The position numbers were made by a program, and so were the translations under genes. Shown here piece by piece: positions 19,571 to 23,831 of a stretch of 44,567 nt of DNA. Origin of the DNA: Arcobacteraceae bacterium. GTDB lineage: Bacteria; Campylobacterota; Campylobacteria; Campylobacterales; Arcobacteraceae. The notes below the pieces were generated by a model that worked only from the letters and a program-made list of their open reading frames with translations, ran no database searches and was not told the origin of the DNA. Every line of letters begins with the position of its first letter. Position 1 is the first letter of the stretch. Where the stretch lies: positions 1 to 44,567 of the forward strand of contig JAQUAG010000020.1 of the NCBI GenBank assembly GCA_028687375.1, given 5' to 3'.

Positions 19571-20458
19571 TTATGCTTCTTCTTTGTTAAATTCAGCTAT
19601 TAAGCTATCTAAATCATCTTCAGAAACAGTTTGTGAACTATCCCCTGAAATATGTTTTGCTATTTGTACTTCAGGTTTATTTGAATCATCCTCAAATAAT
19701 CCACTTAAATAAAGTGAAAGTTTTCTAATAACAGCCATAACTCTTTCTATTTTTTGTCTATTGATATCATGATACTGCATAAGCTCCATAGCTTCAAAAA
19801 CTTTATTATTTTCATCTTCAATTCCTGTTGCTATTTCAGCAAGGATATTTTTTACATCAGCAGCTTTTTCTAAATTTTGACTAAATATATCAACGTTTGG
19901 AAATTTATTACTCAGAGTTTCTAATAATTTTGTTTGGGCATCAATAAAGTCTAGAACTTGTGTTGTATTTTTTTGTAATAAATCATTTTCATCAAGTATG
20001 AAACTTAAAACATCAAAAATTTGAGATGCTTTCTCTTCACTATCTTCTGCCACTTCATTAAGTTGATTTACAACTTTATGCTCTTTTTCAACAGGCATAG
20101 GGTAAATGCCCTTGTCTATTTTGCTACCAATACTCTCATCATCTTGTTTAACTGGTGATGGTTTTTTAGTTTCAACTTTAGGTGCTGGTGCATCTTCAAC
20201 AATTCCACCAATACTAGATAACAAAGCATCCATATCAGCTTCATTAAGATTTTCATCTTCATCAGTATCAACAATTCCGTCAATTCCTGCAAGTAAGTCG
20301 TCTATATTTGTTCCATAATCATCAGAGCTTTTATCATCATCTCCATCATCAACGATTCCATCTATACCAGATAGTAAATCGTCAATATTATGTTCATCAG
20401 AACTATCTGATATGGTATCGTTCATAAGAGCTTCAATCTCTTCTTGAGTCATGCTCAT
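19571..20458 (-). CDS. cheZ: CheZ-family CheY-P phosphatase with repeated docking-like peptides
   Basis: A 295-residue protein. Residues about 140-255 are the CheZ helical hairpin. The catalytic pair is in MQYHDINRQKIERV: Asp231 and Gln235 have the same spacing as Asp143 and Gln147 of E. coli CheZ. Residues 280-290 (EDDLDSLIAEF) resemble the C-terminal CheY-binding peptide of CheZ. Unusually, the first 90 residues are acidic and carry TQEEIEALMND at the start, like the CheY-binding N-terminus of FliM, then three spaced copies of a xIDDLLxGIDGIV peptide. The product should remove phosphate from CheY-P, perhaps at the motor. It lies 10 bp after cheY in the same operon. Confidence 0.9.
   Translation of the reverse strand: MSMTQEEIEALMNDTISDSSDEHNIDDLLSGIDGIVDDGDDDKSSDDYGTNIDDLLAGIDGIVDTDEDENLNEADMDALLSSIGGIVEDAPAPKVETKKPSPVKQDDESIGSKIDKGIYPMPVEKEHKVVNQLNEVAEDSEEKASQIFDVLSFILDENDLLQKNTTQVLDFIDAQTKLLETLSNKFPNVDIFSQNLEKAADVKNILAEIATGIEDENNKVFEAMELMQYHDINRQKIERVMAVIRKLSLYLSGLFEDDSNKPEVQIAKHISGDSSQTVSEDDLDSLIAEFNKEEA
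20198..20389 (-). repeat. Three-copy acidic peptide repeat within cheZ
   Basis: Residues 24-36, 51-63 and 75-87 of CheZ read NIDDLLSGIDGIV, NIDDLLAGIDGIV and DMDALLSSIGGIV. They are spaced 27 and 24 residues apart by acidic linkers. Each resembles the EIDALLxG core of the FliM N-terminus. Confidence 0.85.
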
Positions 20459-20468
20459 GATTTATCCT

Positions 20469-20843
20469 TTAGTTTTTGAAGAATGGATCTAGTTTTTCTT
20501 TTAATGTTTGGGCATTAAATGGTTTAACAATGTAGTTGTTTACTCCAGCTTTTAACGCAGTGATAACTTCACTTTTTCCACCCTCAGTTGTAATCATAAC
20601 AGTAGGAGTTCCTCTATGAGTACTCCCTTCGCTTCTTATTTTCTTAACAAGCTCAAGACCATTCATATTTGGCATATTCCAGTCGGTTAAAATAACATCA
20701 TATTTTTTCTCTTGTAATAATTTCCAAGCTACTACACCATCTTCAGCTTCATCAAAATCACCTTTTGCAACACCCAATTGTTGAACAACATTTCCAATAA
20801 TTCTTCTCATAGTTGAACTATCGTCTACAATTAAAATTTTCAT
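20469..20843 (-). CDS. cheY: Chemotaxis response regulator CheY
   Basis: A single-domain receiver of 124 residues that switches the flagellar motor when phosphorylated. The acidic pair is Asp7-Asp8, the phosphoacceptor is Asp54 in ILTDWNMPNMNG, Thr85 is the switch residue and Lys107 is in IVKPF. It is the first gene of a seven-gene minus-strand operon continuing with cheZ and basal-body genes. AGGATGATACAA lies directly before ATG 20843. Confidence 0.97.
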   Translation of the reverse strand: MKILIVDDSSTMRRIIGNVVQQLGVAKGDFDEAEDGVVAWKLLQEKKYDVILTDWNMPNMNGLELVKKIRSEGSTHRGTPTVMITTEGGKSEVITALKAGVNNYIVKPFNAQTLKEKLDPFFKN

Positions 20844-21813: not shown

Positions 21814-22260
21814 ATGAATTTAGATGAACTAAAGCAAAGACGAGAACAGAATATTCGTTTACATAAAGAGAAGAAAAAAGCTTATTATTTAAAAAAGAAA
21901 TTAGCTACTAATTCTGGTGTAACTGAAGAAAAGCATCAATTTATAGATTACGAAAAAGAGCTATTTGGTGGGGATTTACTTAGCTTCACAGCTAAAATTA
22001 AAGAGATAGCAAAAAAGCAAAAAACATATATTCAAGACAGAGAAGAGATTATAGTAGCTAAAATTGAAGAGTATAGAAATAAGAAAAAAGATTATTATCT
22101 TGAAAATAAAGATAAAAGACTTCAGTACGATAAAGATTATAGAATTAAGAAAAAAGAAGATTTAAAAAATTATCGTAAAGAGTATTATGAAAGAAATAAA
22201 GATAAAATTTTAGCAAAACAAAGAGAACACAGACTAAAATTGAAAGAGACTGATAGTTAA
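21814..22260 (+). CDS. Small, highly basic coiled-coil protein of unknown function
   Basis: I do not recognise this 148-residue protein. It is rich in Lys, Arg, Glu and Tyr and predicted helical, with no membrane segment or signal peptide. Residues 94-101 (YYLENKDK) and 124-131 (YYERNKDK) are two copies of a motif 30 residues apart, each followed by basic helix. The spacing to flgG is 11 bp. Its stop codon overlaps the start of the next gene by one base, so it is almost certainly translated with the CheC-like membrane protein. RNA binding or a flagellar scaffold role is possible, but the sequence does not show which. Confidence 0.75.
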   Translation: MNLDELKQRREQNIRLHKEKKKAYYLKKKLATNSGVTEEKHQFIDYEKELFGGDLLSFTAKIKEIAKKQKTYIQDREEIIVAKIEEYRNKKKDYYLENKDKRLQYDKDYRIKKKEDLKNYRKEYYERNKDKILAKQREHRLKLKETDS

Positions 22261-23831
22261 TGGCATCTTCTGATATATCTTTACAAATACAAGAAGCTAT
22301 CACAAGTATAATAGAAACTTCTCTTAATGGTAGTAGTAATGTATCGATACTTAAGACGTATAAAACTACCAATCAATCATTGAATGGATTAAATGTTCTT
22401 GTTGTTAATGTTTCGTTTGCTTTTGAAAAACTAACAACAAATTTAAGATTTGTTCTCCCAGCTAAAACAGCTACAATGATAGCTCATGCTATGCTTATGG
22501 AAGATACACCACCACTTGATACTATTAGTGAGGATATAGCTGATGCTATGAAAGAATCTATTACTCAAATATGTGGTACTTTACAAACAGTTATTAATAG
22601 CTCTGGTTTGGAAGATTTAGGGAAAAGTAGTTTTTCTATTGGTAATTTTGAGATTATTGATGGCTTAAATTATCAAGTTGTAAATACTTTTCTCCTTTTA
22701 AAATTATCTTGTGGTGAAAATACTTATGATTATTTTATCGATTTTGAAGAGAATATTTTACCTTTTATTGAAGAGTTATCCAAGAGTGATAGTTTTATTT
22801 TTGAAGATGAACAAGCTCAAATCGAAGCACCTAGCAATGATGTAGAAGAGATAATAGTTTCAAGTGAGGAAGATTATACACCTGAAGAATCTGCTAATAG
22901 TGAGCAAAAAGAAATATTAGGTGAAGAAGATAAAGATAATGAGATAAAAGAAAAAGAAGAAGACAATAATCCACCGCTTATAAAAGAGGATGAAAATATA
23001 GTAGAAGAGGGTGTCTCTTCTGAAGATGAAGAGAAACTTGCAAAAGTAAATAAAAAGAATAAAATCATCAAAATGGTAGTTATTGCACTTGCTACGATTT
23101 TGGGGATTGTTATCATTGGATTTTCTGTTATGCTTTATATGGGTGTATTTGATAAAGAAGAAATACCAGTAGAGAAAGTAAAGCTAGATACAAATATTAC
23201 TAAACCGTCCGAAGAATCTTTGGTTATTGCTGATATAAAAAATAAGCAAATCGATTTTAAATTAAGTATGATTGATGAAAACAGAATAAATAAAAAACTC
23301 CAATTTTTGACAAAATATGAAATTTTAGAGGAAGATGTATTGGCTAAATTTAAAAAAGCAGAAGAGGAGAGATTGTATAAATTAAAAATGGCAAAACTTG
23401 AGGAATTTGCTTTAAATAATAAAGAGGAATCGTTATACAAATCTAATGATGGAAATATGACAGGTAATAATATTAATGATGAACAAAGAAAAAATAGATT
23501 CGATGATGAGAATTTAACTGCTTCAAATCTTCCAACTACTGAACAAAATGATAAAATGATGCAAGACGAGCTTTTGATGCTTGTTAAAGTTGATCCAAAA
23601 GAATATAAAAAGTATAAAGAAGTTATTACTAAAAATAAACAAGATTCTACTCAAATCTCTATTTGTAAAGATCAAAAAGGGGTAGTGAATGTTTATGTTG
23701 GACCTATTTATTTGAAAACAGTTATAAATAATATTTTGAATGAAGCAAAAAAAGTAGATAAGAATAGTAAGAAAGATATGGGGCTTGTTTCTATTAAAAG
23801 AGGTGAATTTAATAAAATGTGTGATTTTTAA
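22260..23831 (+). CDS. CheC/CheX-like domain protein with one membrane helix and a periplasmic domain
   Basis: A 523-residue protein in four parts. Residues about 1-180 resemble the CheC/CheX/FliY fold: LRFVLPAKTATMIAHAMLME, then SEDIADAMKESITQICGTL. The usual ExxN phosphatase signature is not intact. Residues about 185-262 are a strongly acidic linker. One hydrophobic helix lies near 270-292 with lysines on its N-side (NKKNKIIK), placing the N-part in the cytoplasm. The last 230 residues should be periplasmic, charged, and end in a small domain with two Cys (SICKDQKGVVNVYVGP and EFNKMCDF). Its place behind flgG and a coupled basic protein suggests a motor-associated role. The overall architecture is unfamiliar to me. 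Confidence 0.75.
   Translation: MASSDISLQIQEAITSIIETSLNGSSNVSILKTYKTTNQSLNGLNVLVVNVSFAFEKLTTNLRFVLPAKTATMIAHAMLMEDTPPLDTISEDIADAMKESITQICGTLQTVINSSGLEDLGKSSFSIGNFEIIDGLNYQVVNTFLLLKLSCGENTYDYFIDFEENILPFIEELSKSDSFIFEDEQAQIEAPSNDVEEIIVSSEEDYTPEESANSEQKEILGEEDKDNEIKEKEEDNNPPLIKEDENIVEEGVSSEDEEKLAKVNKKNKIIKMVVIALATILGIVIIGFSVMLYMGVFDKEEIPVEKVKLDTNITKPSEESLVIADIKNKQIDFKLSMIDENRINKKLQFLTKYEILEEDVLAKFKKAEEERLYKLKMAKLEEFALNNKEESLYKSNDGNMTGNNINDEQRKNRFDDENLTASNLPTTEQNDKMMQDELLMLVKVDPKEYKKYKEVITKNKQDSTQISICKDQKGVVNVYVGPIYLKTVINNILNEAKKVDKNSKKDMGLVSIKRGEFNKMCDF

Follow-up and report, generated by a model that had tools for sequence, protein, structure and literature searches.

The phosphatase CheZ carries a C-terminal tail peptide that tethers CheY-P for attack by an Asp/Gln pair. 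The CheY-binding peptides of FliM and of CheZ occupy a single face of CheY (alpha4-beta5-alpha5; PMC3774744), and the cooperativity and oligomerisation of E. coli CheZ are disputed (PMC2673030). In Helicobacter, D189 and Q193 of CheZ are needed in vivo (PMC11237671). Removing the C-terminal region of the H. pylori protein abolishes phosphatase function, but removing residues 1-39, which include a FliM-like peptide, leaves it unaffected (PMC11237671). As of 2024, the function of the N-terminal region of Campylobacterota CheZ was called unknown (PMC11237671). In Arcobacter, a CheY named CheYz is encoded beside CheZ within the largest flagellar locus and is the CheY that is predicted to bind FliM; W58, K91, and K119 are conserved in CheYz and not in the other Arcobacter CheYs (PMC9321776).

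We analysed a 44,567-nucleotide stretch of DNA (the window; contig JAQUAG010000020.1) from an Arcobacteraceae bacterium with a genome of 2.54 Mb. It encodes a CheZ whose nearest relatives are also from Arcobacteraceae. The original prediction had placed this gene correctly; it gave no strand, which is minus. The features are:

19571..20458, minus strand: cheZ, 295 aa, from the ORF list and a match to NCBIfam NF041271 (Phos_CheZ) over residues 96-291
20469..20843, minus strand: cheY (CheYz of Arcobacter), 124 aa, immediately upstream of cheZ; Pfam Response_reg, E = 1.2e-29
20417..20458, minus strand: docking-like peptide 1, FliM-type N-terminus, residues 1-14 (MSMTQEEIEALMND); matches E. coli FliM SQAEIDALLN; AlphaFold2 (AF2) helix 5-15
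20342..20389, minus strand: docking-like peptide 2, residues 24-39 (NIDDLLSGIDGIVDDG); core motif; AF2 helix 25-33
20261..20308, minus strand: docking-like peptide 3, residues 51-66 (NIDDLLAGIDGIVDTD); core motif; AF2 helix 52-60
20189..20236, minus strand: docking-like peptide 4, a diverged copy, residues 75-90 (DMDALLSSIGGIVEDA); core motif; AF2 helix 73-83
19694..20083, minus strand: long helical hairpin, residues 126-255 (helices 126-185 and 190-255); AF2, pLDDT of about 90 over most of it
19739..19789, minus strand: active-site segment, residues 224-240 (MELMQYHDINRQKIERV), with Asp231 and Gln235; aligns with the Helicobacter DIHRQ site
19583..19624, minus strand: docking peptide 5, CheZ C-tail, residues 279-292 (SEDDLDSLIAEFNK); core motif; AF2 helix 280-294

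The ATG start of cheZ lies 10 bases past the stop codon of cheY, with AAAGGA upstream, and flagellar genes follow downstream. Since cheY adjoins cheZ here and in 56 of the 57 relative loci that we tested, the locus matches the published CheYz/CheZ arrangement of Arcobacter (PMC9321776). Elsewhere in the window, a 523-aa ORF (22260-23831, plus strand) has a weak CheX-like stretch (PF13690, E = 0.0037), a linker rich in acidic residues, and a hydrophobic segment that resembles a membrane segment, and is possibly a membrane-anchored CheX/FliY-like protein. Between it and a flagellar rod-type gene lies a K/E/R-rich, highly charged ORF of 148 aa (21814-22260, plus strand).

The protein is clearly homologous to CheZ, as had been predicted. 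It matches the Campylobacterota CheZ profile NF041271 over residues 96-291 (E = 7.8e-33) with a score of 114 bits, short of the 350 bits that the curated equivalog level requires. This profile was matched by 97 of 104 genomes of Arcobacteraceae, none of which reached 350 bits; across Campylobacterota, 23 of 298 genomes did. The Pfam CheZ profile gave only a non-significant match to the protein (E = 0.12) and found nothing in a search of the whole genome, and a PDB sequence search with the protein had no CheZ among its matches.

The phosphatase core is intact, again as predicted. Asp231 and Gln235 form a D-x-x-x-Q site within MQYHDINRQ that is invariant across 13 aligned sequences. We also built an AF2 model of the single chain from 13 sequences, in which the site lies within the long helical hairpin. 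Across 7 relatives, the hairpin is 96% identical over residues 126-158 and 93% identical over residues 216-250. The CheZ structure 1kmi has a long antiparallel helical hairpin. A Foldseek search with the model gave E = 0.86 for 1kmi_Z, and helical hairpins resemble many unrelated folds, which makes a fold search uninformative for such a shape.

To describe the putative docking peptides, we used the core pattern [DENSTQAK][ILVM][DEN]x[LIM][LIVM], which was devised with the known E. coli peptides and the window protein in mind. Within residues 1-40 of E. coli FliM it matches once (at residue 10), and in E. coli CheZ it also matches once (at residue 204, in the C-tail); both matches fall at the known CheY-docking peptides. 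In the window CheZ it matches five times, inside residues 1-14, 24-39, 51-66, 75-90, and 279-292. All five matches have the hydrophobic-[DE]-x-[LIM]-[LIV] core of FliM- and CheZ-type peptides, and AF2 places a helix on each of them. The first four are separated by coil with pLDDT below 50, and the confidence of the helices in the arms is modest. The last match is in the predicted C-terminal docking helix (SEDDLDSLIAEF), which shares its core with the C-tail of E. coli CheZ and is kept in nearly all relatives. The original prediction also described three copies of IDDLLxGIDGIV in an acidic tail. Two are true copies and all look like docking peptides, but the third is diverged (MDALLSSIGGIV), and all of them lie in an acidic N-terminal extension (31% D+E over residues 1-110) rather than in the C-terminal tail.

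The array is not a chance occurrence, because the core pattern occurs 0.19 times per 100 aa across the ORFs of the window, versus 5 matches in CheZ, and because the three internal matches compare with a mean of 0.17 in shuffled versions of the linker. As the pattern was tuned to known peptides, the weight rests on independent tests. Across Arcobacteraceae, CheZ has a mean of 2.40 internal motifs per protein, versus 0.27 after shuffling. With one protein from each of 17 genera, we counted 42 internal motifs, versus 4.5 in shuffled sequences (maximum of 11 in 500 shuffles); the shuffle tests take only partial account of relatedness. In a de novo count of 6-mers in a reduced alphabet across all Arcobacteraceae linkers, hydrophobic-acid-acid-hydrophobic-hydrophobic-polar ranked first, with 116 occurrences versus 5.2 in shuffled linkers. 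The consensus of 215 motif instances is [DE]-I-[DE]-[DE]-L-L-[SAN]-x-I-[ED], which parallels QVDDLLDSLGF of E. coli CheZ. Furthermore, Q-[DE]-E-I-[DE]-A-L is encoded at just two sites in the genome, the starts of CheZ and of FliM, and the reversed control pattern had no matches across the genome.

The FliM-like N-terminus was present in all 88 of the Arcobacteraceae CheZ proteins that we analysed and in 46 of 48 from other Campylobacterota, including Helicobacter. The original prediction was therefore right about this feature, but it is not special to this protein. We did not find a prior mention of the resemblance between the CheZ N-terminus and FliM in the literature that we searched, whose coverage was incomplete, and it may have been noticed earlier. 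Internal copies were absent from the 48 CheZ proteins from outside Arcobacteraceae, which have linkers of 33-68 aa. This distribution implies that a CheZ with a peptide at both termini is probably ancestral in Campylobacterota and, as judged from these sequences, that the internal array is an addition of the Arcobacteraceae.

By its own terms, the original prediction would have been refuted if the repeats were absent from relatives. This check did not refute it: 89 of 91 relatives have at least one internal motif, and two have none by the strict motif. The number in Arcobacteraceae ranges from 0 to 5, with five strict matches in two genera (g3 and g9). Given this range and the two relatives without any, the internal array is not essential. 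The most extended relative that we saw (L155, from G034) is 431 aa long and, besides five strict internal motifs, carries looser ones.

Such variation in copy number is what might suggest neutral drift, with the repeats having spread through an acidic disordered spacer after a docking peptide was duplicated. We disfavour this explanation and consider it very improbable, as nearly all of the relatives retain an internal motif and, within the same proteins, the peptides are 66-100% identical among the closest relatives while the spacers of the N-terminal arm are 21-36% identical. Also, internal copies 1 and 2 differ mainly at synonymous positions (7 codons differ synonymously and 3 non-synonymously), which indicates that the copies are old and have been kept through selection on the protein. 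The synonymous differences also rule out a fresh tandem duplication of the DNA.

Two other observations came from the survey of relatives. First, many Arcobacteraceae have another CheZ-like paralogue, which is short (about 120-165 aa) and has a DxxRQKIERV site (for example L138, G000:C47:171295-171537). In L140, L141, and L142, it starts with MTQEELDA[LM]M and has an acidic end of the type [ED]EL/IE[AR]LIA, making it a mini-CheZ with a docking-like peptide at each end. Second, a metagenome bin titled Helicobacter pylori PMSS1 (L031, CAMCYD010000002.1) contains an Arcobacteraceae-type cheZ that is 73% identical to that of the window; the title looks wrong.

What would the peptides bind? The neighbouring CheY is 50% identical to E. 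coli CheY and retains the equivalents of D57, W58, Y106, K109, and K119. Because the peptides of FliM and CheZ compete for a common face of CheY, extra peptides should let each CheZ hold more CheY-P but should not bind any single CheY more tightly. We propose, with a probability of about 0.6, that this protein is the flagellar CheY-P phosphatase of Arcobacteraceae, in which two flexible arms with helix-forming docking peptides flank the catalytic helical hairpin, and that it gathers several CheY-P. Each of the five peptides would capture one CheY-P (of the CheYz encoded next door), so that one chain would gather several around its active site. This would raise the apparent affinity of CheZ for CheY-P, and it would keep CheY-P off FliM, whose peptide the N-terminus of CheZ copies. 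At the level of sequence, the proposed docking by all five peptides is well supported. With one CheY-P per peptide, and with residues of the docking face kept in the neighbouring CheY, collecting several CheY-P per chain would most likely be the role.

Alternatively, the internal peptides might bind other receivers of chemotaxis or signalling, such as the other CheY paralogues or a ChePep-like receiver, and CheZ would be a hub or drain for several pathways instead of a sponge for CheYz. About 70 receiver-like matches were counted in the genome, and the internal peptides are not alike in detail. In Arcobacter there are five CheY homologues, and the ancestral cheYZ was taken over by an F7 pathway of lateral origin (PMC9321776); in H. 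pylori, ChePep localises CheZ (PMC7750401). We nevertheless think that this alternative is unlikely, as the other Arcobacter CheYs do not conserve W58, K91, and K119 and are poor candidates for binding FliM- or CheZ-type peptides (PMC9321776), and cheY adjoins cheZ in nearly every locus tested. On balance, then, we prefer capture of CheYz.

Short acidic amphipathic helices can also serve other partners. The repeats might be helices that mediate self-association, target the protein to the pole, or bind another partner, in which case their likeness to docking peptides would reflect only convergence or common origin. In Azorhizobium, CheZ can be directed to the pole by its N-terminal region alone (PMC7750401). 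The N-terminal region of H. pylori CheZ, which phosphatase function does not require and whose function is called unknown (PMC11237671), would fit as well, and in the genus of the window CheZ the repeat runs past the docking core (GIDGIVDDG). However, the enriched core is exactly the part that is common to FliM and CheZ peptides, and the flanks vary among genera. We doubt this explanation, and docking of CheY-P remains our preferred reading. The H. pylori deletion does imply that the N-terminal peptide is dispensable for catalysis in that organism. The peptide could instead tune affinity, buffer CheY-P, or compete with FliM, or could have another role.

The original prediction also held that multiple docking would make the control of signal decay steep. 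We examined this with a toy steady-state model with arbitrary parameters, in which maximal sensitivity rose from 1.5 to 2.15 if five peptides all fed one active site, but was lowered to 1.1 if the extra peptides only held CheY-P. Steepening thus hinges on the hand-over of CheY-P from the peptides to the active site: in this model the claim holds only if the peptides feed catalysis and fails if they only hold CheY-P. As a general claim, automatic steepening is ruled out by this model (with its arbitrary parameters); multiple docking may sharpen switching but need not do so.

A broader scenario, which is speculative and which we consider rather unlikely, is that Arcobacteraceae CheZ is a multivalent scaffold for CheY-P. 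As a dimer, it would have up to ten or more docking sites, would mimic FliM with its N-terminus and titrate CheY-P away from the motor, and might cluster in a CheY-P-dependent manner. Its origin would lie in growth of the repeats when the foreign F7 array took over the ancestral cheYZ.

Our analysis suggests what the N-terminal region could do in Campylobacterota CheZ, in a concrete form that can be tested: it would be a copy of the CheY-binding peptide of FliM on the phosphatase. Furthermore, the CheZ proteins of Arcobacteraceae form a natural series in which the number of docking-like peptides per enzyme runs from about 2 to 7. This series would allow the effect of docking valency on a push-pull signalling switch to be measured, a question that has so far been treated mostly via models and disputed data on the cooperativity of E. 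coli CheZ.

In summary, the window CheZ shares its homologous core and D-x-x-x-Q site with H. pylori CheZ (HP0170, a remote CheZ orthologue). CheZ from Helicobacter relatives also has the FliM-like start (MTQEELDALM) and a C-tail peptide (DIEALIASF), but H. pylori CheZ lacks the internal docking-like copies. E. coli CheZ also has the catalytic Asp/Gln pair, and its C-terminus docks CheY through VDDLLDSLGF; in contrast to the window protein, it has one docking peptide and no FliM-like start. Finally, the N-terminal CheY-binding peptide of FliM is matched within the same genome, as FliM begins with MAEFLSQDEIDALLG and the window CheZ begins with MSMTQEEIEALMN. The FliM peptide is located on the motor switch, whereas its counterpart in CheZ is located on the phosphatase.
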